Source: Argonema antarcticum A004/B2 (lineage in GTDB: Bacteria > Cyanobacteriota > Cyanobacteriia > Cyanobacteriales > Aerosakkonemataceae). From it: a stretch of DNA of 64,000 nt. The notes under the pieces were generated by a model. That model made no database searches. It was not told where the DNA came from and saw only the letters and a list, made by a program, of their open reading frames with translations. The translations under genes and the position numbers were made by a program. The stretch's first letter is position 1, and every line of letters starts with the position of its first letter. Positions 1,866-49,530 of the stretch are shown piece by piece. The stretch covers positions 1 to 64,000 of the forward strand of contig NZ_JAIQZN010000034.1 in the NCBI RefSeq assembly GCF_023333585.1, read 5' to 3'.

Positions 1866-4800
1866 GGGTTATGTTTCTGTAAACTTAACAGTTGTTGAAT
1901 AGTTGTTGCCAATTGCTTTAGCTTGAGGGGTTTACTAATGTAATCATTTGCCCCAGCTTCTAAGCAACGATCTCGATCACTCGTCATGGCTAAGGCAGTT
2001 AGGGCAACGATCGGCACATCAACTAAGTTTGGATCGCGGCGGATCTGCTGCATGGCTTCTAGACCATCTATCCCAGGCATTTGAATGTCCATCAGAATCA
2101 GATCGGGATTTTCAGACTTAGCTAGGGCGATCGCCTCCTCTCCATTTTTAGCCAAAATAATCCGATAGCCTTTAGCTCTCAGGTAGCTCGAAACCGTACT
2201 GATATTGGCTTCGTTGTCTTCTGCCAGCAAGATTAAGGGAGAGCCTTCCTGTTCGGGCTGGCTGAGTTCGATGTGGGGTGCGGTCTGGGATTCCAGGTTA
2301 GGAGAGGATGGCGCAGCAACAGAACAGGGAAGGTCGATCGTGAAGCAACTTCCTACCCCCACCTCGCTAGTTAGCCCCACCTGCCCGCCGTGGAGTTCGA
2401 CAATGCGTTTCACCAACGCAAGCCCCAAACCTGTCCCCTGATATTGGCGATTCAGAGCGCTATCGATTTGGATAAAGGGCTGAAACAGTTTGTTGATATT
2501 TTCTGGGGCAATGCCGATGCCTGTATCGATAACGGCAATTTGCAGGTAGTCCCTCACCTCCAACCCCTCTTCCTGGGGGCTTAGACCTTGGATCGAAGTA
2601 GCGGGGGAGATGGGGAGATGGAAAACGGAAATCTCCCCTGTGCCCCTCTTCTCCCCTGCTCCTGTGTCCCTGTGCCCCTCTGCCCGCCTTTGACGGCTGA
2701 CTTCTAGGGTGATGCGTCCTCCTTCTGGGGTGAATTTGACAGCATTGTTGAGTAGGTTGATCAAGACTTGGCGGATGCGCCGTTCATCAATCAATAAATC
2801 GGGCAGATTGAGTGGCAGTTTAATCTCTAGCTGGAGGCGTTTTTGCAGGGCTTGTTGTTTGATGAATGCCTGACTGGATTGACACAGACGATTAATTGAA
2901 ACTGCCGTAAAATCCAACTCCATCTGACCCGATTCAATTTTGGCGACATCCAAAATGTCGTTGATTAACTCTAGTAAGTGAGAGCCACTGCGCTCAATGG
3001 TTTGTAAAGCCTTAATTTGTGCTTCATTAACTATGCCAAAGACTGCCTCTTGTAGCCCCTCAGTCATGCCCAGAATGGCGTTAAGGGGGGTGCGGAGTTC
3101 GTGACTCATGTTCGCGAGAAATTCGTCTTTAAGGCGGGTAGCACGCGCAAGTTCTTCGTTAGAAACTGCCAATTGTTGGTTGCGCTCAGTGACTTGCTGC
3201 TGCGCTTGTTGTCGTTCGGTAAGTTCTTGCTGCAACTGCTCAAATAGGCTAGCTTGCTGAATGGCGATCGCTAACTGGTTAGCAATTTGTTGCAAGAGTT
3301 GCGCCTCAGACTCTTGCCATACTCGTTTTTCTCGACAAGCATGGATAATTAAAACCCCCCAGAGCTTATTGCTTTGGTCTGGGGCCACCCATCTGTGGGG
3401 TTCACTGCCTCGCACTTCTTGCAGAATAGGTGCAACGATTTTGGACTGAATTTGACCTTGAATGCAATATTCTACTAGGCAATCACTCGAGATATCAGTC
3501 ATCACATCAGGGACAATGCGCGGCTTACCCTGCCAGTAGCAGTTGAGGATTTCTTGAGACCAAACTTCATTATCCCAGTGGCGATCCTTGAGAGCGGGGA
3601 ACTGACTAGATACAGATTCCTTAACAATTTGACTTCTGCCATTGCCAAATAGCCGGAACACGATGACGCGATCGCCTCCCAAGATTTCTTTGACTTGCTG
3701 CGTCACAGTCACCAAAATTTGGTTAATATCCAAGGATTCGCGAATTTGCTGGACGATCACTCCCAAAGCTCGCTGCCGTTCTAATTGTAAAGCGATCGCT
3801 TCTTCTGTTTGCTTGCGGATCACCAGTTCCGATTGCACCTGTTCGTAGAGATTAGCTTGCTGAATCGCGATCGCTAATTGGTTAGCAGTTTGTTTGAGTA
3901 AATTGATTTCCCAGTCTTCCCACTGGCGCGGAAGATCGCATTGATGGATAATCAGCAATCCCCAGAGAGTGTGATTCTGAACAATTGGAACTACGAGTTT
4001 CGCTCTGACATGAATTTCTGCTAGGAATTGAATCAGACAAGGTAAAACTGGCTGGTTTTCATCTTCGCGATCGCTGAGGGCATACACTCTTCCTTGGATA
4101 TAGCGCTCATAATTCTGTTCTGGGAAAACCTCTTGAGGAAAGACGATATCGAGAATTTTGGGCCATTTTGGCAAGACAGATTCAGCAATGGCAGCCCCCG
4201 TTCCTCCCGGAAACACCCGATAAACCAGCGCTCGGTCTGATTGTAAGACCTGACGGATTTCCTCAACAGTGGTATTGAGAACTTCGTCTAGATTCAGAGA
4301 CGATCGCATCCGTTGAGTAATCGCTCCCAGCAAACGTTCCTGTTTTGCCTGTTGTTGCAATCTCAATTCGGTTTGTTTGCGATCGCTAATATCGCGACAT
4401 ACACAAATCAACAATCCATCTGTAAGAGTAAGAGATAGACCTTCAGTAAAAGTCGAGCCATCTTTACGGGTAGCGATCGCTTCTCCCTCCCAAGCGCGAT
4501 CGCGCCCCAGCACTGGAAAAACTTCCTGCTCAAACCGTTCTAACTCCTCTAGGGAATACAAACCTCTCCAGTTTTTACCGACCAATTCTTCGGGATATTC
4601 GTAACCAAATAGTTCTAAATGAGCTTGATTTAAGTAGAGGTAGGTGTCTCCTTGCATAATTGCAATGCCATCGATCGCCGCCTCAATTGCCGCTGCCTGC
4701 TGCGTCATCGCCTGCTCGTTTTTTTTGCGATCGGTAATGTCTTGAATCAAGACCAGTAAGTGTGTCAGTCCGTCATTGCTTGATAGGACAGAAGTAGAAA

Positions 4801-7800
4801 TGGCGACAGTTCGTTTGTGCCCATCTTGATGCTGGATTTCCCTTTCTTGAGCGATCAGATTTTCCCCTTGCCGTATCTTTCCCAAACGGGCGATCGCTTG
4901 TTCTCGATCCAAGGGATCGGGGTATAAACTTTGATACCACCCCAGACGGTTAATATCTTCTAAGGTGTAGCCTGTAATCGCTTGCATTTTCTGATTCCAG
5001 ACTGTGAAGCGGATAAAAGGAAACTCCTCAACTTCATGGAAAACACACAGACCTTCTGCCATGTTTTCTACAATTTGTTGACGGAAAGTATTTTCCTGCT
5101 GGAGAGTTGCTTGAGCCAATTTGCGGGCGGTAATGTCGAAGCGAATTGCTAGATACTGGAAAGGCCGCCTTTGTTCGTCCAGAAAGGGGACGATGGTGCT
5201 GGCAAGCCAGTACAGGCTACCGTTCTTGGTGCGATTGCAAATTTCACCGCGCCAAATCTGACCACTGGTAATGATGCGCCATAGGTCTTGGAAAAAAGCG
5301 GGGGGATGGTAGCCAGAGTTGACAATGCGATGGGTTTGACCGAGCAGTCGATCGCGGGAATAGCCAGATATCTCGCAAAAGCGATCGTTAGCGTAGGTAA
5401 TAACTCCTTGAGCATTGGTGATGGCGACAATCGCGGAATGATCGAGGGCGAGTTTGAAAGCGGAAAGTTCTTGAATTAACTGCTGGCGTTCGAGTTCAGC
5501 TTGTTTGCGATCGCTAATATCAAAATTGATCCCAATCATGCTCTGGGGATTGCCTTGGGCATCTCGCGCTACCACTCCATAGGCTTTGATAAAGTGGATG
5601 CTGCCATCGGGATGCAACACCCGAAACTCGGTATCGAATTCTGCCTGTGCTAAAACGGCTTGCTGGAGCAATGTTTCGGTGGAGATGCGATCGTCGGGAT
5701 GTATTCCGTTTGCCCAAATTTCGTAGACCAAACGAGACTCAGATGATTGGGTGACTCCATACAGCTCGTACATCCGCTCATCCCAAAGCAGAGTGTTCTT
5801 GACAATATCCCATTCCCAACAGCCGATCTCTCCAGATTTGAGGGACAAGGCGAGGCGCTTGGATAATTTCTGTAGTTCCGCTTCGGCAAGTTTGCGATCG
5901 CTAATATCAAAGTTGAGCCCAATCATGCTCTGGGGATTGCCCTGGGCATCTCGCACCACCACTCCATTGGCTTTAAGAAAGTGGATACTACCATCGGGAT
6001 GCACGAACCGATACTCGGTATTGTATTCTGCCTGTCCTAAGACGGCTTGGTGGAGCAATGTTTCGGTGGAGATGCGATCGTCAGGATGTAGCCCGTTTGT
6101 CCAACTGTCGTAGGTTATAGGGGAATCAGATTGTTTCGTGAAGCTAAACAGTTCGTATATCCGCTCATCCCCAACGATGGTGTTTTGTTTAATGTCCCAT
6201 TCCCAAGCACCGATCGCCCCAGATTTGAGGGACAAAGCGATGCGATCTGATAGTTTTTGTAGTTCGGCTTCAGCTCGTTTGCGATCGGTAATATCTTTGG
6301 CGATGCCTAAAAAGCCGATAATTTGCTGATTGACATCCTTGAGGGGGGTGATGGATAGCGACACAGGAAAGCGAGAGCCATCTTTGCGGATATAGCTCCA
6401 CTCTTCTTCGCTGACAATACCTTGGCGGGCTTTGGCCACAAGAACCTCAAAGCCGGGAGGCACATCTTGCCCCAATTCGGCACAGAGGGAGGCGGCTCGG
6501 TCAATTACCTCCCTGGCATCATGGATGAGTGCAGGTGTGGCAATGCCGACCATTTCTGTGGCACTATAACCCAGCATCCCTTCGGCTGCGGCATTAAAGG
6601 TTTCGATGATGCCAGTTAGGTCAGTGGAGATAATAGAGTAATCAGCACCATTGAGGATAGCGTGTTGTAGGCTGTTGACTTGTGATAGCTCTTGGGTGCG
6701 CTCTGCGACTTTGGCTTCTAGTTGTTGATTGAGTTGGTGTAGTTGTCGAGCAGCCTGTTTGCGATCGCTAACGTCTCGAATCATAAAGAGAGCTTCATCT
6801 TCGCCGCTCTTGACAACTCTGACTTCTTCATCTTGCAAGCGATCGTCAATCTGCACCTGTTGTTCATAAACTTGCAGTTCTCCTGTGCGTAAGGCTTGTT
6901 CTAGGTAGTGTAGATGTCGAGTTGCAATCTCTGGTGGTATAACATCTACCATCGCCAAACCAGCAGTGTCGAAATCTGCTGGGAGAAAGTCGATCTCACG
7001 ATTGGCTGTCACGCCCCCCCGATAAATACCATTGGCATCTATGCGAAACATGAAGTCGGGAATGGCGGCTAATATGGCTCGGCTTTGGGCTTCGCTTTGG
7101 ATCAGGGCAGCTTCAGCAAGTTTGCGATCGCTAATATCTGTCACCGTACCTACATAGCCGACCACTTGCCCCTCTGCATCAAGTTCCGCAACAGATTGCC
7201 CATATACCCACGTCACTGCCCCGTCAGGACGTTGAAAGCGATATTCAAGCTGGAAGGGGCGATTTTCTTGAGCAGATTGATACCATTCAGCGGCGATCGC
7301 ATCGCGATCTTCCGGGTGGAGTCCTTGTCGCCATCCCTCTCCAGCTGCGGTTTTTGGGGTGAGTCCGCCGATTTGACACCAGCGATCGTTGACATAGACG
7401 CAATTGCCCGCAGCATCGGTGCGAAAAATCCCTACAGGAGCCACAGCGGCAAGGGTCGCATAGCGTTGTTCGCTCTCAAGCAGGGTGGCTTCGATCCGCT
7501 TTCGCATTGCCAGTTCATTCTGCAACTGTTGGTGGGTGGTGGCTTGCTGAAGGGCTTTAATCTTCAGGTCGGATGTCCGAGCTTCTATCTTTTGCTCTAG
7601 CTCAAGGTTACGATTTTCTAGCAGTGCCACCTTTTCGCGTTCTAGTGTCACCACTTTCTCTTCCAACTTCTCCGCCAGCTTGTAGAGTTCCAGCGGGTTG
7701 AGGGCTTGCAGCAAACTGGTCTGGGTGACGATGCCCAATAACTCCCCTTGCTCGTTCGTCACCACTAACCGCCGGATCGATCGCTGCTCCATCATCTGCT

Positions 7801-40860: not shown

Positions 40861-41622
40861 TTAGATAATACTCACCACAACCTTTCCTAAATAATAGAGA
40901 ATTTTCTGATGCTCCTCAGTTAAATTACTCACCTGCTTCTCTCCATTGACTATTATCAAATGTACCGCCTGAAACACCTGAAATACCCAGCGCATTGTCG
41001 GTCTATTTGTTAATTTATTTACCTGATTTTTAATCCCACTTCCAGATGATTCTAATTCTGGCCTTAGCTTTCTTTGTGCTAAAGTATAGACCAATAAACA
41101 AAGTCCCATTATCATCGCAATTGCTTCCACTAATTCTCCGGATTGATTAGCTGGGTTTACTTCTTTTTCTCCTCCGGTATTTTCGTCCTCTCCATGTACA
41201 TACATTGAACTCCCATCTAAATGAATACTATTCATTTTTACTTGAAATTTCTGGGCGGCTTTCAGGGCGATTGCTGTAAATAATTTTGTGGTTCCGGCTT
41301 GATAATATTTATCTAGTGTTCTGGCTAGTCGGTCATCGTTTAAGTGTGATGGTAAAACTCCTTCTCCTATTAGATGTTCTGTTGCTTTTCCTCCGAAAAA
41401 TTTTTCAAATAGGTATAATGGGGCGCTCAAAAATCCTAATCCATTCAAAATCATCGCTTTCATTACTTGTCCAGGAGTTAAGGTTTCTTTTGTTTTTATT
41501 CCCACTTTTTTATTAACTTCTTCTACCAGTTCCATTTCATCTATTATTCCGGCTATTATGACTAAATGGTCGATATTTAGGACTTTTATGGCTAAGGCGG
41601 ACTCTTTCATAGTTTTTCTCAA
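40861..41622 (-). pseudogene. IS1634-type transposase, in-frame internal deletion (253 codons)
   Basis: The N-terminal part is typical of IS1634/DUF4277 transposases (LNIDHLVIIAGIIDEMELVE, LTPGQVMKAMILNGLGFLSA, then IHLDGSSMYVHGE with the first catalytic Asp). After about residue 160 (NPANQSG) the sequence jumps to the C-terminal part (LVEAIAMIMGLCLLVYTLAQ, RWVFQVFQAVHLI). The middle, some 300 residues carrying the second catalytic Asp, is missing, yet the frame is maintained. Family length is about 550-600 aa. It cannot be an active transposase. Confidence 0.8.
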
Positions 41623-41689: not shown

Positions 41690-41788
41690 CTATGGTTCGG
41701 CGAAATTCTAAATAATTAAATTGGCCTTAATATCTGCGGAATGTGGGGTTAAAAGTGTATGATCTGCAAATAATAGCCATATTCAGAT

Positions 41789-43261
41789 ATGTTAATTTTT
41801 CCAGTAAACCAAAAACGCGCCTACGCCTTAGATGCCCTGCGTGGATTCGCCGTTTTAGCAATGATCTTATCGGGTACGATCGCATATCGCATCTTACCGG
41901 CTTGGATGTATCACGCCCAAGTCCCGCCACCAAACCATAACTACAATCCTAATCTGCCCGGTTTAACCTGGGTCGATCTTGTATTTCCATTGTTTTTATT
42001 TTCAATGGGTGCAGCCATACCCCTGGCGCTGTCTCGTCGCCTTGCCAAAAAAGTTTCTCACCCAGAACTTATTTTACACATCCTTAAAAGAGGATTTTTC
42101 TTAGCAACATTCGCCATCGTTCTTCAACATCTGCGACCAAGCATGATCAGCCAAGACTCTACTCTAGAAAAATGGGGGATTGCTTTATGGGGATTTTTAA
42201 TATTATTTTTTATGTTTGTACGTTTGCCAGATTCATTGCCAAAATGGCATCGCAGAGCAATTCCAGTTATAGCCTGGATATCTGCGATCGTACTTTTGTC
42301 TCAACTCCAATATCAGGATGGCGGCGGATTTGAACTCGCTCGTAGCGATATTATCCTCATCGTTCTAGCAAATACTGCTGTCTTTAGCTCGCTAATTTGG
42401 CTGTTTACTAAGTCTAATTTGCGGCTGCGGCTGGGATTTTTGGGCTTATTACTAGCTTTGCGTTTGTCAGCTACCGTTAGTGGCAGTTGGATTGCTCAAA
42501 TTTGGTCAGCTTCTCCCGCACCTTGGATTTTCCAATTTGCGTATTTGTCCTATTTGTTTGTGGTCATTCCCGGAACAATTGCTGGCGATTTAATTTTATC
42601 GTGGGTAAATACTACAACACCTGCGGAAGTAGGCGGAAGCGATCGAATTATTGAGCAGCAAGAATTATCGATTAATCCACCTCTGCAATGGCAAATAAAT
42701 CGTTTTTATACCATTATTTTGTTGATATTGGCTAACTGTTTGGTGCTGCTGATTGGATTGCAAGGTAGATGGGTATGGCAAACAACGTTAGTCAGCGGTG
42801 TACTTTGTTGGGCTGGTTGGTTTTTATTTACCAAACCAACTAATGAAACAGAATACTTAATCAAAATGTTGTATAATTGGGGCGTTTACTGGCTGGGCGT
42901 TGGCTTACTCTTTGAACCTTTCCAAGGCGGGATTAAAAAAGACCCATCAACTTTAAGTTACTATTTTGTAACCACAGGCATGGCCTTTTTTATCTTGATT
43001 TTATTTACAATAATCATAGATGTTCTTAACCAAGGAAAATGGCTACAATTATTAATTGATAATGGTCAGAATCCCATGATTGCCTATGTGGGATTTGCCA
43101 ATCTAGTTTGGCCTATTCTGATCTTAACTAGAGTTGATGCGTTGGTTATACAAAATACCAAAACTCAGTTACTTGGATTCTTTAAAGGGATTGTTTATAC
43201 TCTGCTCGTAGCGTATATTGTGAGTTTGTTTACCAGACTGAAACTATTCTGGAGGACTTAG
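41789..43261 (+). CDS. DUF5009 / HGSNAT-like multi-pass membrane acyltransferase-type protein
   Basis: A 490-aa integral membrane protein with about 11-12 hydrophobic segments. The N-terminus QKRAYALDALRGFAVLAMIL and WVDLVFPLFLFSMGAAIPL are hallmarks of the DUF5009 / heparan-alpha-glucosaminide N-acetyltransferase-like group (R..alDalRG..., D...P.FlF..G). Family members are thought to move acyl groups across the membrane to sugars, but bacterial roles are mostly unproven. The gene is solitary, between the IS derivative and the ars genes. Its ATG at 41789 starts the conserved region almost at once, which supports the start. Confidence 0.82.
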   Translation: MLIFPVNQKRAYALDALRGFAVLAMILSGTIAYRILPAWMYHAQVPPPNHNYNPNLPGLTWVDLVFPLFLFSMGAAIPLALSRRLAKKVSHPELILHILKRGFFLATFAIVLQHLRPSMISQDSTLEKWGIALWGFLILFFMFVRLPDSLPKWHRRAIPVIAWISAIVLLSQLQYQDGGGFELARSDIILIVLANTAVFSSLIWLFTKSNLRLRLGFLGLLLALRLSATVSGSWIAQIWSASPAPWIFQFAYLSYLFVVIPGTIAGDLILSWVNTTTPAEVGGSDRIIEQQELSINPPLQWQINRFYTIILLILANCLVLLIGLQGRWVWQTTLVSGVLCWAGWFLFTKPTNETEYLIKMLYNWGVYWLGVGLLFEPFQGGIKKDPSTLSYYFVTTGMAFFILILFTIIIDVLNQGKWLQLLIDNGQNPMIAYVGFANLVWPILILTRVDALVIQNTKTQLLGFFKGIVYTLLVAYIVSLFTRLKLFWRT

Positions 43262-43325
43262 CGAATTTGTCAGATCGATTGTGCTTTGGATAGGATAGCT
43301 GAAGAGACGTTTCAAAAAAAACTTG

Positions 43326-43661
43326 ATGGTAAACCTACCTGCCCTAGCACCAACTGACATCGCTTCTGGCTTTCATGCCTTATCTGACCCCCTGCGGCTT
43401 CAGGTCTTGGATCTGCTACGCTCTCAAGAGCTATGCGTGTGCGAACTCTGCGAACAATTGGGGGTCACTCAGTCTAAACTGTCGTTTCACCTCAAAACCC
43501 TCAAAGAGGCAGGCTTAGTTCGATCGCGCCAAGAAGGACGCTGGATTTACTACACCCTCAATCTGTCTGTGTTTATCGTCTTGGAGCAGTACCTGGCAGA
43601 ATACCGTCGCTTCAGTACTATCTTACCCGCTCGCTCCTGCCGGGACGCCAGTTATAGCTAG
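43326..43661 (+). CDS. arsR: ArsR-family metalloregulator
   Basis: 111 aa from the ATG at 43326. A winged helix-turn-helix of the ArsR/SmtB type: ALSDPLRLQVLDLLRSQELC, then CELCEQLGVTQSKLSFHLKT. The metal-sensing cysteines are Cys37, Cys39 and Cys42 in ELCVCELCE of the recognition region, the classical As(III)/Sb(III) site. It should repress the arsenic genes downstream until arsenite binds. The C-terminal residues RSCRDASYS read into a copy of the dispersed repeat, so the tail is probably not original. It heads the arsenic island; likely operators lie before arsH and acr3. Confidence 0.92.
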   Translation: MVNLPALAPTDIASGFHALSDPLRLQVLDLLRSQELCVCELCEQLGVTQSKLSFHLKTLKEAGLVRSRQEGRWIYYTLNLSVFIVLEQYLAEYRRFSTILPARSCRDASYS

Positions 43662-43736
43662 GGGCTAGGGGCTAGGGGCGTGTTTCAAGGGTTTCAGGAA
43701 TTAAGAACGTCCTAACTGACGAAAGCCGTTGCTATA
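43652..43736 (-). repeat. Dispersed TATAGCAA...CTAGCTATA repeat, copy D
   Basis: On the minus strand it reads TATAGCAACGGCTTTCGTCA, GTTAGGACGTTCTTAATTCC, and three CCCCTAG units ending CTAGCTATAA. It overlaps the last codons of arsR. Confidence 0.85.
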
Positions 43737-43780
43737 ATCCATCAACTTTTTTTATATTATTTTCCCCTTAAGCTTCATCC

Positions 43781-43826
43781 TTGGTACTTGACAAATCAAT
43801 TTTTTTTGAAATGATGGTATTATAGT
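43781..43826 (+). promoter_or_regulatory. arsH promoter with putative ArsR operator
   Basis: TTGGTACTTGACAAATCAA followed by a T-run, TTGAAATGAT and TATTATAG. TTGACA at 43788-43793 can serve as the -35 element and AATGAT at 43810 as a weak -10 with a 16-bp spacer. The dyad ATCAA...TTGAAATGAT lies in the spacer, where an ArsR-type repressor would block polymerase. A near-identical block precedes acr3 at 44641-44684. Confidence 0.6.
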
Positions 43827-43839
43827 CTTTAAGTAATTT

Positions 43840-44493
43840 ATGCCGACTTTTGAACATCCACCCAGGATTTTGTTTTTGTATGGTTCTTTACGCGATCGCT
43901 CCTACAGCAGACTACTAGCTGAAGAAGCAGCCCGGATTATTGAAGGATATGGTGCAGAAATCCGATTCTTCGACCCCCGTGAGTTACCCATTTATGGCAG
44001 CGTACCAGATACACATCCAAAGGTTCAGGAGTTAAGGGAATTAAGCGTGTGGTCTGAGGGACAAGTGTGGTCGAGTCCAGAGATGCACGGGCAAATTACC
44101 GGCATCATGAAAAACCAGATTGATTGGATTCCATTAACTTTAGGCGCAGTTAGACCCACTCAAGGCAGAACTTTGGCCGTAATGCAGGTAAGTGGTGGTT
44201 CTCAATCCTTTAATGCCGTCAATACTTTGCGACTTCTGGGGCGCTGGATGCGGATGTTTACCATCCCCAATCAATCTTCTGTTGCTAAAGCCTACCAGGA
44301 GTTTAACGAAGATGGGACGATGAAAGATTCTCCCTACCGCGATCGCGTTATTGATGTGATGGAAGAACTCTATAAGTTTACCATCTTGCTGCGAGAGCAA
44401 GTTGATCACCTGACCGATCGCTACAGTGAACGCAAAGAAAAAGCTGCCAAACAAGTTATTGAAGTGGCAAACAAAGCTCTAGAGGTTTCATAA
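43840..44493 (+). CDS. arsH: ArsH NADPH-dependent FMN oxidoreductase
   Basis: A 217-aa cytosolic flavoprotein. The FMN phosphate loop is [18 protein letters not shown] (about 14-31); also [35 protein letters not shown] and the flavin-contacting [20 protein letters not shown]. The length and motifs are those of ArsH rather than of general flavodoxin-like reductases. ArsH oxidises trivalent organoarsenicals such as methylarsenite to less toxic pentavalent forms using NADPH. It has its own promoter with a putative ArsR site, which it shares in sequence with acr3. Confidence 0.95.
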
Positions 44494-44640
44494 ACTCAAT
44501 TTGCCCTAATTTGTCGTTTTAGAGCAATCTTTGGCATAATACCGTCGCTTCAGTAATATCTTACCTCTGGTTCATAATCCCTTATGTCGTAACCTTTTAC
44601 CTCTTACCTCAACGCTCGCCCCTAGCTATAACCTCATTTT

Positions 44641-44684
44641 TGGTACTTGACAAATCAACTTTTTTTGAAATGATTTAGTTATAG
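44641..44684 (+). promoter_or_regulatory. acr3 promoter with putative ArsR operator
   Basis: TGGTACTTGACAAATCAACT, a T-run, then TTGAAATGATTTAGTTATAG. TTGACA is at 44647-44652 and an AATGAT -10-like box follows after 16 bp. About 35 consecutive positions match the arsH promoter with very few differences, so both genes should respond to the same repressor. A tail fragment of the dispersed repeat (CGCCCCTAGCTATAA) lies just upstream at about 44617. Confidence 0.6.
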
Positions 44685-44768
44685 ACCAAGTGCAAAAAGG
44701 TGGTGCCTTATCCCATTTGGGTATACAAGTTGAAAGTTCAGAAAATGTTCGGCAGCTATCCATAAATC

Positions 44769-45836
44769 ATGACGAAAAAACCTCTAACAAAACAACTTTC
44801 TTTTCTCGATCGCTTCCTAACATTGTGGATATTTTTAGCAATGTTTGTAGGCGTCTGGCTGGGATATTTCATTCCTGGAATAGAAGAATTTATCAACCAA
44901 TTCCAAGTAGGAACAACTAACATCCCCATTGCCATTGGCTTAATTCTGATGATGTATCCGCCACTTACCAAAGTGCGATACGAAGAATTAGGAGATGTAT
45001 TTCGTAATACTAAGATTCTCAGTTTATCTTTAGTGCAGAACTGGGTTGTTGGCCCGATTTTAATGTTTGTACTTGCCATTGTCTTTTTGCGGGATTATCC
45101 CGAATATATGGCAGGCTTAATTATGATAGGATTAGCCCGCTGTATTGCAATGGTAATCGTGTGGAGCGAATTAGCCAAAGGAGATACGGAATACACCGCT
45201 GGATTAGTCGCATTCAACAGTATTTTCCAAGTTTTGTTTTACAGCGTTTATGCTTGGTTTTTCATTACAGTTCTGCCACCTTTATTTGGCTTAAAAGGAA
45301 GCATCGTCTCAATTGGGATTGGAGAAATTGCCCAGAGTGTTTTCATTTATTTAGGAATTCCCTTCATTGCCGGATTCCTGACTCGCGTTGCTTTAGTAAA
45401 AGCCAAAGGTAAGCAGTGGTATCACCATAAATTTATTCCCAAAATCAGCCCTATCACTCTAATTGCCCTACTATTTACAATTGTGGTAATGTTTAGCTTA
45501 AAGGGCAATTTAATCGTGCAAATTCCAATGGATGTTGTGCGAATAGCAATTCCACTACTCATCTATTTTGTAGTAATGTTCTTAGTTAGTTTCTATATGG
45601 CATGGAAAATCAAAGCTGACTACGCAAAATCTGTGAGTTTAGCTTTTACTGCCGCTAGCAATAATTTCGAGTTAGCTATTGCTGTTGCCGTTGCAGTATT
45701 TGGAATTAACTCTGGTGCTGCCTTTGCTGCCGTCATTGGGCCATTGGTAGAAGTGCCGGTGCTAATTAGTTTGGTGAATGTAGCATTCTGGATTCGGAAA
45801 CAATATTTTAAAGTTTCCGAAGCAAAAGCTCTCTAG
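44769..45836 (+). CDS. acr3: Arsenite efflux transporter Acr3 (BASS superfamily)
   Basis: A 355-aa inner-membrane carrier with about ten transmembrane segments. Acr3 hallmarks: [59 protein letters not shown], and the conserved Cys region [19 protein letters not shown], in which the Cys is needed for arsenite transport; also [20 protein letters not shown]. It extrudes As(OH)3 driven by the proton gradient. It is followed after 18 nt by arsC, so both are in one operon: the arsenite made by ArsC is exported by Acr3. Confidence 0.95.
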
Positions 45837-45854
45837 TAAAATAAAGGATTAGCA

Positions 45855-46250
45855 ATGAAACGAGTGATGTTTGTTTGCAAGAAAAATTCTTGCCGTTCCC
45901 AAATGGCTGAGGGATTTGCTCGCACTCTCGGAGAAGGTAAAGTATCTGTTACCAGTTCGGGATTAGAGGCAAGTCAGGTTCATCCCATAGCTGTTCAAGT
46001 AATGGATGAAATTGGTATTGATATCACAGAGCAAAAATCTAAGCCTTTGAGCGATTTTAAGTCAGAAGATTACGATATAGTGATTTCTTTATGCGGGTGT
46101 GGAGTTAACTTGCCAGAAGATTGGGTATTGCGAGAAGTTTTTCAAGATTGGCAGTTGGACGATCCAGATGGGCAAGCAATAGAAGTTTTTCACAGGGTGC
46201 GAGATGAAGTTAAAGAACGGGTAGCAAAACTGGTTGAATCTGTTAGTTAG
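45855..46250 (+). CDS. arsC: Arsenate reductase, low-molecular-weight phosphatase fold (glutaredoxin-dependent cyanobacterial type)
   Basis: 131 aa. The P-loop is CKKNSCR at residues 8-14 (CX5R), with nucleophile Cys8, and the redox pair is Cys80 and Cys82 in SLCGCG. This is the cysteine set described for Synechocystis ArsC, which has the fold of the thioredoxin-type enzyme but uses glutathione/glutaredoxin. It reduces arsenate to arsenite in the cytosol. The start is supported by AAAGGATT a few bases upstream. It is cotranscribed with acr3 and followed by a hairpin at 46293-46326 that may end the transcript. Confidence 0.93.
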   Translation: MKRVMFVCKKNSCRSQMAEGFARTLGEGKVSVTSSGLEASQVHPIAVQVMDEIGIDITEQKSKPLSDFKSEDYDIVISLCGCGVNLPEDWVLREVFQDWQLDDPDGQAIEVFHRVRDEVKERVAKLVESVS

Positions 46251-46292
46251 TAAGTAAACGGGCATAATTAAACATAAAACTGCTGCGCCCTT

Positions 46293-46326
46293 AGAAACCC
46301 GGTAACTCCTGCGAAACCGGGTTTCT
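46293..46326. terminator. Hairpin after arsC (AGAAACCCGGT/ACCGGGTTTCT)
   Basis: An 11-bp perfect stem with a 12-nt loop, followed by ATTCTTTG rather than a strong T-run. It may terminate the acr3-arsC transcript. It is a relative of the palindrome at 9721-9753, so it may instead be a dispersed repeat. Confidence 0.45.
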
Positions 46327-46479
46327 ATTCTTTGCCGGGACAAATTCCAATAGGAACTAAACTAGAAGTTGTTGCTAGTCAGCAGTCAGTAGTGACCCCA
46401 GACTGACGCTTGGGGTCAGTTATAATTGAGAGCAAACTACCGATCGGCAACTACCAACTACTACTAGCGATCGCTAACT

Positions 46480-47517
46480 ATGACAAAACCAGAAAATTCC
46501 CAAAACTCGAACGAAATGCCGCCCTCCCAGGCGATGTTGCAAATGATCGTTGGGCCTTGGGTATCGCAGGCAATCTATGTTGCGGCTAAACTCGGTATTG
46601 CTGACTTGCTGAAAGATGGGCCGAAAACTAGCGATGAACTTGCCAACGCAACTGGCACTCATGCGCGATCGCTCCACCGTGTACTGCGTGCCCTCGCCAG
46701 TGTGGGTGTCTTCACCTTAGCAGAAGACTTTCGCTACTTCCTGACGCCTCTAGCAGAATGCCTTTTAAGAGATGTTCCAGGTTCGCTGTATTCCACCGCC
46801 GTTATGTTTGGCGAGGAGTGGCACTGGCGACCTTTGGGCGAGATGCTTCATACCGTCAAGACGGGCGAACCGGCGTTCGATCGCGTCTTCGGCATGGAGT
46901 TGTTCCCGTACATGGGCAAAAACGCAGAAGCTGCCAAAATATTCGACGAGGCGATGACCAGTCTTTCTGCCAGAAATAATGCGGCTATTCCAGCTGCATA
47001 TAACTTTTCGCCCTACAGCAAGTTAGTGGAAGTTTCGGGTGGACAGGGAACTCTGACGATCTCCATCCTCAAAGCAAACCCAGGACTCAAGGGTATTCTC
47101 TTCGATCAACCGTCAGTTATTGAAGGTGCAAAGTCTGCGATCGAGGCACAAGGACTTGGCGATCGCTTGCAGCTTGCGAGTGGCAACTTTTTTGAGTCGG
47201 TGCCTAGTGGCGGTGACATCTATATGCTTAAGAACATTATTCACGACTGGGACGACGAGCGATCGATTGCGATCCTCAAGAATTGCCACAGCGCAATGGT
47301 GGAAAATGGAAAACTTCTGGTCATCGAGATGGCGTTACCGTCGGGTAATGAGCCCTCGTTTGGTAAGCTTGCTGACTTGGAAATGCTCGTCAGTCAACCA
47401 GGTTGGGAACGCACCGAAGCTGAGTATCGAGATTTGTTTAAAGCCGCAGGTTTCCATCTGACGAAAATTGTTCCAACCGCATCTCCCTTAAGTGCGATCG
47501 AGGGTGTGCCCGTTTAG
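46480..47517 (+). CDS. SAM-dependent O-methyltransferase (plant-type Methyltransf_2 family)
   Basis: A 345-aa protein. The N-terminal helical dimerisation/winged-helix part is at about 15-105 (QAIYVAAKLGIADLLKDGPK, HARSLHRVLRALASVGVF). The Rossmann part has motif I VEVSGGQGTLTISIL, slightly different from the usual V.V.GG.G; then FDQPSVIEGA, the acidic/catalytic-region motif LKNIIHDWDDERSIAILKNC, and ERTEAEYRDLFKAAGF. The substrate of this family is usually a hydroxyl of a small aromatic or polyketide molecule. It lies inside the arsenic island between arsC and arsS but lacks the cysteines of ArsM arsenite methyltransferases. Whether it acts on an arsenical, an arsenosugar intermediate or something unrelated is unknown. 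Confidence 0.85.
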   Translation: MTKPENSQNSNEMPPSQAMLQMIVGPWVSQAIYVAAKLGIADLLKDGPKTSDELANATGTHARSLHRVLRALASVGVFTLAEDFRYFLTPLAECLLRDVPGSLYSTAVMFGEEWHWRPLGEMLHTVKTGEPAFDRVFGMELFPYMGKNAEAAKIFDEAMTSLSARNNAAIPAAYNFSPYSKLVEVSGGQGTLTISILKANPGLKGILFDQPSVIEGAKSAIEAQGLGDRLQLASGNFFESVPSGGDIYMLKNIIHDWDDERSIAILKNCHSAMVENGKLLVIEMALPSGNEPSFGKLADLEMLVSQPGWERTEAEYRDLFKAAGFHLTKIVPTASPLSAIEGVPV

Positions 47518-47567
47518 GATCGAGAGTAGAAAAGCGAAATTAACTGGTACTACCAACAGAGAGAGAA

Positions 47568-48581
47568 ATGACTCAGACTAGAGTAATGGATGGGATTTCA
47601 GATTCGTCTGTGACACCCTTTAAAAAAAAGCTGGGCTCGCAATTAGCTAAAAACAAAATATCTGTTTTACAAATCAATCTGGGCAAACGCTGCAATCTCG
47701 CCTGCACTCATTGCCATGTGGAAGCTGGGCCAAAACGCACTGAAGAACTGTCCCCAGAAATTTGCCACCAACTAATTGAACTAATCTATAAATTTCCCCA
47801 AATAAAGATTGTTGACCTCACTGGCGGGGCACCGGAAATGCTCTATGGCTTTAAGCCAATAGTGGAAGCAGCGCGTCATGCCGATAAACAAGTAATTGTG
47901 AGGTCTAACCTTACCATTTATTTTGAAGAAGGGTTTCAGGATATTCCCGAATATTGTGCCAAACATCAACTGAAAATCGTTGCTTCCCTACCCTGCTACC
48001 TACAAGATAATGTCGATAAAATGCGCGGGACAGGTGTTTACGAGCGATCGATTCTCGCTCTCCAGTGGCTGAACAAGCTGGGCTACGGTCAAAAACCGAA
48101 TTTAATCCTTGACTTAGTATACAATCCACCAATTCCCAAAACAGCACAATTCTCTTTAACTGCCAATCAAATTAAACTTGAGCAGGATTACAAGAAGTTC
48201 TTAAAGGAGCATTTTAATATTGATTTTAATAACTTATTTACTATTACTAATTTACCGATCGGGCGGACAAAGCTGCATTTAGATCGTCAAAACCTTTATG
48301 CTCCTTATCTAAAATTTTTGGAATCGAATTTTAATGGCAGTACTACTGAATATTTAATGTGCCGGAATGAACTGTCTATTGATTATCTGGGAAATGTCTA
48401 TGATTGCGACTTTAACCAGATGGAAAATCTGCCCGCCAAACTCAAGGGTGGTGAAACGCTGACAGTTACAAAGTTATTGGCAGCGGTAAATTTAGATTCG
48501 ATCGATGAGGTGCAAACAGCGCCATACTGCTATGGTTGTACAGCGGGATCGGGTTCTAGCTGTGGTGGCGCTTTATTATAG
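47568..48581 (+). CDS. arsS: Arsenosugar-type radical SAM protein ArsS
   Basis: A 337-aa radical SAM enzyme. The [4Fe-4S] site is Cys42, Cys46 and Cys49 in RCNLACTHCHVEAGP; also VDLTGGAPEM, VRSNLTIYFEEGFQDIPEYC, MRGTGVYERSILALQWLN and YLMCRNELSIDYLGNVYDCD. The C-terminal cysteine-rich tail CYGCTAGSGSSCGG is typical of ArsS and the DUF3641 region. ArsS transfers the 5'-deoxyadenosyl group to dimethylated arsenic, a step to arsenosugars. Its usual upstream partner ArsM is not in the window; an O-methyltransferase gene lies 50 nt upstream instead. The start is supported by GAGAGAGAAATG. Confidence 0.92.
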   Translation: MTQTRVMDGISDSSVTPFKKKLGSQLAKNKISVLQINLGKRCNLACTHCHVEAGPKRTEELSPEICHQLIELIYKFPQIKIVDLTGGAPEMLYGFKPIVEAARHADKQVIVRSNLTIYFEEGFQDIPEYCAKHQLKIVASLPCYLQDNVDKMRGTGVYERSILALQWLNKLGYGQKPNLILDLVYNPPIPKTAQFSLTANQIKLEQDYKKFLKEHFNIDFNNLFTITNLPIGRTKLHLDRQNLYAPYLKFLESNFNGSTTEYLMCRNELSIDYLGNVYDCDFNQMENLPAKLKGGETLTVTKLLAAVNLDSIDEVQTAPYCYGCTAGSGSSCGGALL

Positions 48582-48703
48582 AGGCTAGGGGCAAGAAAAG
48601 TCAAAAGTTAGTAGGGGCGGGTTTTGTAAAATATTCTGTTGGTAATGAGATGTGTGGGCTAAACCCGCCCGTACAAAAGGGATTGGGGATTGGGGATTGG
48701 GAT

Positions 48704-48834
48704 TGACAACTGACAACTGACGACTGACAACTGACGACTGACAACTGACAACTGACGACTGACAACTGACAACTGACAACTGACAACTGACAACTGACGA
48801 CTGACAACTGACAACTGACAACTGACAACTGACT
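48704..48834. repeat. Heptanucleotide tandem repeat (CAACTGA/CGACTGA)
   Basis: About 18 copies of GACAACT with GACGACT variants, the reverse complement of the array at 24621-24770. It separates arsS from the VTT-domain gene. ORFs on the minus strand through it (SVVSCQL repeated) are artefacts. Confidence 0.95.
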
Positions 48835-48849
48835 AATGACTAATAACCA

Positions 48850-49530
48850 ATGACTAATAACCAAAAAAAGCATTCATGGATAAGACTGGTGATTGGAATA
48901 GCAGTCTTTATTGCGGCTGACATAATCATCCTTAAATTTACACCAGTCGGCGCTTGGCTAAGGCCAGAAAATCTGCAAGAAGTGAAACAACAGGCGGGAA
49001 TTTTTGCACCGTTGGGGTACATCGTCATTTATTTCGTGGCGGCGTTATTGGCAGTTCCGGGTACGATTTTAACGCTGTCAGCAGGAGCGCTGTTTGGGGC
49101 GTTCTGGGGTGCATTATGGACGATAATTGGGGCGACGTTGGGGGCTACGGGTGCTTTTTTGGTAGCCCGATTTATCGCGGGTGATTGGGCCAGACAGCAG
49201 TTTGAAGGGGCCGATCGCTTGCGCCAACTCAGTCAGGGTATTGAAGAAGATGGGTTTTGGTTTGCTTTGTCGATTCGTTTAGCGCCAGTTTTTCCATTTA
49301 ATGCCGTTAACTACTTGTTGGGTTTGACCCCGATTACCCTACCTAGTTACGTGCTGGCAACAGGGGTAGGAATTATACCAGGAACCTTTGCTTATGCTTG
49401 GTTGGGGCAAGGTGGACTAGAAGCCGCGACAGGTCGTCCGCCTTGGCAGCTCTTCGGTGCCTTGGCAATGCTGGCTGTGCTATCTACTTTGCCGATCGTT
49501 TTGAAGCGTTGGAAATCTAACAAAACATAG
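48850..49530 (+). CDS. TVP38/TMEM64 (VTT/DedA-like) family membrane protein
   Basis: A 226-aa multi-pass membrane protein with five to six hydrophobic segments. The VTT-domain signature is present: VPGTILTLSAGALFGAFWGA, TLGATGAFLVARFIAGDWAR, then FALSIRLAPVFPFNAVNYLL and GIIPGTFAYAWLGQGGLEA. VTT proteins include lipid scramblases and DedA-type transporters; the cyanobacterial members have no settled function. Members of this family are often found near arsS genes, so it may belong to the arsenic island (transport or membrane placement of an arsenic product), though a heptad repeat separates them here. That role is inference. Confidence 0.88.
   Translation: MTNNQKKHSWIRLVIGIAVFIAADIIILKFTPVGAWLRPENLQEVKQQAGIFAPLGYIVIYFVAALLAVPGTILTLSAGALFGAFWGALWTIIGATLGATGAFLVARFIAGDWARQQFEGADRLRQLSQGIEEDGFWFALSIRLAPVFPFNAVNYLLGLTPITLPSYVLATGVGIIPGTFAYAWLGQGGLEAATGRPPWQLFGALAMLAVLSTLPIVLKRWKSNKT

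Follow-up and report, generated by a model that had tools for sequence, protein, structure and literature searches.

A Methyltransf_2 gene at the start of arsS in an arsenic island of Argonema antarcticum: a possible methyltransferase of arsenosugar synthesis

An O-methyltransferase gene at the start of arsS

We analysed a stretch of 64,000 nucleotides of Argonema antarcticum A004/B2 (contig NZ_JAIQZN010000034.1, positions 1-64,000, of assembly GCF_023333585.1), which is called the window below. It contains an arsenic island whose genes all lie on the + strand in the order arsR, arsH, acr3, arsC, a Methyltransf_2 O-methyltransferase gene (the protein is abbreviated as OMT), arsS and a gene for a VTT-domain membrane protein (Table 1). 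The OMT gene stands at the start of arsS, and homologues are found upstream of arsS in other cyanobacteria. OMT may be an accessory S-adenosylmethionine (SAM)-dependent O-methyltransferase which was recruited into the arsS transcription unit and modifies the product of ArsS or an arsenoriboside derived from it. We hold this reading tentatively, at slightly less than an even chance, and both the substrate and the chemistry are predicted. A first-pass annotation of the window had suggested that the enzyme might modify the arsenosugar; this remains the best reading, a plausible one which genome comparison now backs, as the gene recurs upstream of arsS.

The position of the gene is seen from the congener G032, whose neighbourhood contains the DUF5009 protein (92% identity to the window), ArsR (93%), ArsC (93%), ArsS (90%) and the VTT protein (94%), plus ArsM. 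Window positions 41749-43273 match G032 780-2304 (93.2%) and positions 43281-43645 match G032 3487-3850 (91.2%). Since these adjoining matches skip G032 2304-3487, where arsM is located (2349-3314), the arsM stretch is absent from the window between the DUF5009 gene and arsR. The leader and first codons of G032 arsS (start 6075) are also matched in the window (Table 1), where they run into the OMT gene. This places the OMT gene at the arsS start; from window position 47580 the sequence again matches arsS, whose DNA is 91% identical to that of G032.

Two further genomes have the orders DUF5009-ArsM-arsR-arsH (G091) and ArsM-arsR-acr3-arsC-arsS-VTT, without OMT (G139). Based on the gene orders of G032, G091 and G139, ArsM is likely ancestral in the island, and the loss of arsM and the gain of OMT are likely derived. 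Compared with G032, the window arsS has no internal stop and a pairwise ratio of non-synonymous to synonymous substitution rates (dN/dS) of 0.15, a value which cannot be assigned to the time after the loss of arsM; arsS thus looks maintained. On the - strand (window 40861-41622), an open reading frame (ORF) resembling a transposase fragment (by eye) adjoins the DUF5009 gene which borders the missing arsM.

Set beside the known cyanobacterial arsM and arsS genes of arsenosugar synthesis (NF038099, TIGR04167), the window ArsS is a clear member of its family and G032 has the same island with ArsM, whereas the window has no arsM and has a Methyltransf_2 gene at the arsS start. The titles, abstract openings and passages among the literature matches listed contain no description of a gene of this kind beside arsS. 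A bacterial OMT gene next to arsS, absent at the same site in a congener, is a directly testable candidate for arsenosugar methylation.

Recurrence of the gene beside arsS

Two types of ArsM are present in the cyanobacteria sampled: type A is the 322-residue NF038099 protein (571 bits in locus L024), and type B has about 400 residues and most resembles NF040538 and NF008823, scoring under the cut-off of each. In both types there is a CC pair close to the N-terminus, and both have the motif YGCG. The first-pass annotation had proposed looking for the OMT gene beside arsS in other genomes, and it recurs there in G152, G087 and G069. G152 (L024) contains ArsM type A, OMT (60% identity), ArsS, arsR, PstS-like and aquaporin-like genes (both by eye), arsC, arsH and VTT, with 12 bp between arsM and the OMT gene. 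Its congener G165 has arsM-arsS at about 90% DNA identity, and OMT is absent between them. In G087, ArsM type B, OMT (60%), a Pit-like transporter, ArsS and two VTT proteins are encoded on a single strand, and the same core order, also with ArsM type B, is present in G069. G020, which belongs to the genus of these two, has retained ArsM and ArsS, and its OMT is reduced to a remnant of 96 codons. A Pit-like phosphate transporter gene (by eye) separates OMT from arsS in G087 (L123:9229-10353), and in G020 such a gene separates the remnant of OMT from arsS (L127:8475-9587). As G087 and G069 share a genus, the three adjacent cases represent two lineages.

We also surveyed 151 ArsS neighbourhoods from 151 genomes, the window's excluded, using a profile of the OMT family. 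A homologue is found in L118, L123 and L124, and a remnant in L127. A VTT gene is present within 1 kb of arsS in 53 neighbourhoods, which bears out, as a gene association, the VTT part of the first-pass claim; ArsM type A is found within 4 kb in 50, type B in 47 and arsC in 6. The set is not a random draw, as it comprises genomes for which the place of ArsS was listed or the region was fetched otherwise, the OMT genomes included, and some stretches end at contig ends, so that the counts are lower bounds.

Across the order sample, ArsS is present in 231 of 243 genomes (E<=1e-60). OMT itself is more scattered: at E<=1e-100 there are 34 non-self matches in 28 genomes (29 of 243 when the window's is counted), and the gene lies beside arsS in 4 of those 29, again counting the window's. 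All three arsS-adjacent relatives are among the five matches at 60-62% identity; none of the 29 matches at <=57% is beside arsS (24 judged by 1.5-kb flanks, 5 because ArsS is absent or by coordinates on the contig). The class sample of 388 genomes has OMT matches at E<=1e-95 in 35; among those matches, 23 loci were newly fetched, and in none of these is arsS present within 1.5 kb. By our rough estimate, about 0.015 arsS-adjacent OMTs would be expected by chance (34 matches x 2.6 kb / 6 Mb), and two lineages with OMT beside arsS by chance are unlikely.

For the OMT tree, 75 of 79 rows were kept; four near-identical rows were dropped, as was L090, with no open frame found and one in-frame stop listed. 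The window OMT groups with L077, L083 and L084, the G152 OMT groups with that of Nostoc mirabile, and those of G087 and G069 stand apart, all with weak support. A single clade of arsS-adjacent OMTs was considered and is neither supported nor rejected (approximately unbiased test, p = 0.098). Independent recruitment of OMT is suggested by gene order and not proven by the tree.

The O-methyltransferase protein

OMT contains a Methyltransf_2 and a dimerisation domain, and its predicted model has a mean predicted local distance difference test (pLDDT) score of 92. The nearest solved structures (Foldseek) are LaPhzM (6c5b, 47%), AlpH (44%), the mitomycin 7-O-methyltransferase MmcR (35%) and the holomycin methyltransferase DtpM (36% over 339 columns), with a better E-value for MmcR than for DtpM. 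With these four, OMT shares the fold, the dimerisation domain, the SAM motif and the catalytic His; it differs from them in its genomic partner, which is ArsS and not an aromatic natural-product cluster. The same-fold relatives include the amino dimethyltransferase RosA (by structure title), and S-methylating enzymes are also among the relatives of this fold. Judged by its sequence, OMT is a small-molecule methyltransferase of an ordinary kind. Whether the acceptor is O, N or S is not decided by the fold, and methyl transfer to a hydroxyl is predicted. The closest named relatives are cyanobacterial, and one of them (G152) is in a genome of the window's family.

The first-pass statement that the methyltransferase lacks the ArsM cysteines is correct: OMT has two cysteines only, Cys94 and Cys269, without the conserved arsenic-binding cysteines of ArsM, and no ArsM model is present among its three NCBIfam matches (E<=0.001). 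Motif I had also been described as altered. The sequence VEVSGGQG is indeed a single copy among the 75 homologues; however, G or A is widely tolerated at the same position (VDVGGGHG in 14 rows, VDVAGGHG in 6) and the change of D to E is seen elsewhere (VEVGGGHG in 2), so that it is a mild variant. The catalytic motif HDWDD is kept, its His255 is invariant in 15 aligned rows, and His is found at this position in 60 of the 75 homologues. Synonymous changes are saturated (dS about 2.5 at about 60% identity, one pair not computable), and therefore no dN/dS value is given for OMT.

ArsM in the window strain and in other ArsS genomes

The first-pass annotation had also proposed a genome search for arsM. 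Neither type A nor type B ArsM is found in the assembly (7.74 Mb, 249 contigs, completeness 99.93%). With L024 as query, the best match to the type A ArsM reaches about 27 bits (all 25 candidates scored), and there is no type B match at E<=1e-50 (7 of 10 candidates scored). For NF008823, all 40 candidates were scored and the best match has 79.6 bits against a cut-off of 263; one further search, with 9 of 36 candidates scored, gave no ArsM either. The best NF008823 match (L009) was rejected as an ArsM: it reaches 84.8 bits with the ArsM-DUF2284 model (cut-off 575) and about 83 with UbiE models, in each case under the cut-off; it contains two cysteines, and CC and YGCG are both absent. YGCG is found in none of 45 ORFs across 11 candidate loci of the genome (8 of 22 NF008823 matches and 3 others). 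PF13847, used as the first ArsM query, returned 49 methyltransferases and was dropped as too general.

The window strain is not alone in this respect, as 35 of the 231 ArsS genomes lack ArsM by the E-value thresholds. A second look at the other 34, in which all candidates were scored, gives ArsM sequence in three (in two frames in G012, at the end of a contig in G218 and degraded in G189), so that 31 other genomes and the window's remain without recognisable ArsM (32 of 231). A third ArsM type had been considered as the cause of such genomes, and these 3 of 34 are all that the second look returned as ArsM sequence. The states of ArsM in G189 and G012, both outside the 32, point to recurrent loss. 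Within 5 kb of arsS, OMT is present in none of the 20 inspected neighbourhoods of the 34 ArsM-poor genomes, and VTT is present in 11; there is one crude methyltransferase motif match. These 20 include 18 of the 31 ArsM-less genomes, or 19 together with the survey. Since none of these 19 neighbourhoods contains OMT, loss of ArsM with retention of ArsS needs no OMT. The ArsM-less genomes may use arsenic methylated by others, or alternatively they may hold an ArsM of an unrecognised kind. ArsS without recognisable ArsM suggests that the work is divided between organisms, one methylating arsenic and another building the sugar.

Two genomes, G015 (C85:12359-12937, C23:43663-44829) and G043 (C37:43521-44093, C27:33790-34959), contain a type B ArsM and a second match whose score and extent are typical of type A. 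According to PMC5552862, no cyanobacterium had been found with both of its ArsM groups; the contrast holds if types A and B correspond to its Groups I and II.

Possible functions of the methyltransferase

To our knowledge, little is established about arsenosugar synthesis beyond the ArsS step. The substrate of ArsS is dimethylarsenite. In relatives which keep ArsM, this compound would be formed by ArsM; the window strain, in which no ArsM was found, would have to take the arsenical from outside. ArsS would then transfer the 5'-deoxyadenosyl group to it, the reaction established for the family. OMT, probably expressed from the same promoter as arsS, would use SAM to methylate a hydroxyl of the product, most likely one on the ribose of arsenoadenosine or of an arsenoriboside. 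The VTT protein may act in the membrane, flipping or placing a lipid form of this product there. The adenosylation of arsenic by a radical SAM enzyme in arsenosugar synthesis is stated in PMC12159101, which cites the ArsS paper.

Phytyl 5-dimethylarsinoyl-2-O-methylribofuranoside is known from Dunaliella and Picocystis, and AsSugPhytol546, by name the same compound, from Chlamydomonas (PMC10456119, PMC7345539 and PMC11009773 jointly). 2-O-methyl arsenoribosides dominate the lipid arsenic of Chlamydomonas and, at low phosphate, that of Picocystis (PMC11009773, PMC7345539). The first-pass annotation had expected a product not yet described; as the 2-O-methylriboside arsenosugar is already known from algae, the product of OMT need not be undescribed. 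A route proposed in PMC10456119 contains an unnamed 2-O-methylase which acts once arsenic is in the nucleoside, and a methylase acting on the ribose at this stage is common to the algal pathway and to the one proposed here. The difference is that AsSugPhytol546 is a metabolite of green algae, plankton and sediments. No gene for the 2-O-methylase is named in the titles, abstract openings and passages among the matches listed, which are mainly from openly accessible literature.

Most simply, a methyltransferase made with ArsS acts on the product of ArsS. We count for this reading the position of OMT at the arsS start, behind a matching leader and 50 bp 5' of arsS, the two other lineages in which it again lies between ArsM and ArsS, the place of all three arsS-adjacent relatives among the five closest matches of the order sample, the retention of HDWDD and the existence of a 2-O-methyl arsenoriboside in green algae. 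Several results weigh against it. The pairing of OMT and arsS is rare (3 of 151 neighbourhoods and one remnant, in two lineages besides the window), and relatives at 61-62% identity (L077, L078 and, at 62%, L046 of Nostoc mirabile) are in stretches without the ars genes searched for. The arsS-adjacent OMTs are not one clade in the best tree, although one clade is not rejected. The remnant in G020, where ArsM and ArsS stay, makes OMT dispensable there. The solved relatives with named substrates act, by their titles and general knowledge, on aromatic or sulphur natural products and not on sugars, and no report of a 2-O-methyl arsenosugar from a cyanobacterium was found among the literature matches listed. 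A more specific form of the proposal, which we consider unlikely, is that the ribose 2-O-methylase has in OMT a candidate gene, possibly its first; OMT would then have been recruited, probably more than once, 5' of arsS, some cyanobacteria would make 2-O-methyl arsenoribosides, and the window strain would use the methylated arsenic of its neighbours. 2-O-methyl ribose is otherwise known from RNA and algal arsenolipids.

A lesser but real possibility is that a common natural-product or detoxifying O-methyltransferase has come under an ars promoter and that its substrate is an unrelated aromatic or phenolic metabolite and not an arsenical, its activity perhaps being of use under arsenic stress. 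The scattered occurrence of the subfamily, mostly away from arsS, is consistent with this, as are the nearest solved structures (phenazine, mitomycin, calicheamicin and anthracycline enzymes), the decay of OMT in G020 and four further paralogues in the window genome (37-45% identity). Such hitch-hiking does not readily account for three lineages in which OMT lies just upstream of arsS and shares its strand, in two of them between ArsM and ArsS, or for the presence of all three arsS-adjacent relatives among the five closest in the order search. S-methylation by OMT of a thio-arsenosugar, or of a thiol made under arsenic stress, is very improbable; DtpM, which has the same fold and acts on a dithiol, is among the nearest structures, but the O-methyltransferase MmcR is about as near. 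Just as improbable is that the acceptor of OMT is arsenic itself, so that OMT would provide the dimethylated arsenic for ArsS. The window island has no arsM at its ancestral place, has gained OMT, and no ArsM was found elsewhere in the assembly; however, OMT is accompanied by ArsM in three other genomes (type A in G152, type B in both G087 and G069) and so is not simply a substitute for it, OMT has only two cysteines and matches no ArsM model, and the ArsM-less ArsS genomes, which are fairly common, have no OMT in the neighbourhoods read. The first-pass description of an O-methyltransferase "in place of ArsM" is right as to the gene order of the window strain and not as to function.

Genes of the island

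The seven-gene island described in the first-pass annotation is confirmed in place and order by the NCBIfam and Pfam scores (Table 1). ArsH, Acr3, ArsC and ArsS all exceed the curated NCBIfam cut-offs, and ArsR exceeds that of a metalloregulator subfamily. ArsS contains the radical SAM cluster motif CX3CX2C (GKRCNLACTHCHVEAG; PF04055, 43.2 bits).

Table 1. Features of the arsenic island in the window
Feature	Coordinates	Strand	Evidence and remarks
Scar of the missing arsM (likely ancestral)	43273..43281	.	Both flanks match G032 either side of G032 arsM
arsR-type repressor	43326..43661	+	NF033788, 100.7 bits (cut-off 55); ATG 43326, alternatively TTG 43323
arsH	43840..44493	+	TIGR02690, 384.6 bits
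acr3, arsenite efflux	44769..45836	+	TIGR00832, 470.9 bits
arsC, glutaredoxin-type arsenate reductase	45855..46250	+	TIGR02689, 238.7 bits
Ancestral arsS leader and first codons, leading into OMT	46372..46496	+	89% match to G032 5965-6091
Methyltransf_2 OMT, inserted at the arsS start	46480..47517	+	PF00891, 158.6 bits (gathering 22.3); PF08100 dimerisation, 61.7 bits (gathering 25.6); HDWDD with His255; pLDDT 92
arsS, radical SAM adenosyl transferase of arsenosugar synthesis	47568..48581	+	TIGR04167, 410.8 bits (cut-off 300); 50 bp after OMT
VTT-domain membrane protein	48850..49530	+	PF09335, 91.4 bits (cut-off 33.9)

Shortly 5' of the VTT gene (window 48704-48833) there are about 19 copies of the heptamer TGACAAC, which are partly read as a spurious frame of 90 amino acids in the ORF list. 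The window Acr3 (36% identity to that of G139) occupies the place of an aquaporin-like gene (by eye) in three related islands (L109:4291-5013, L110:872-1594 and L024:12137-12844), so that the exit route of arsenite may have been swapped.

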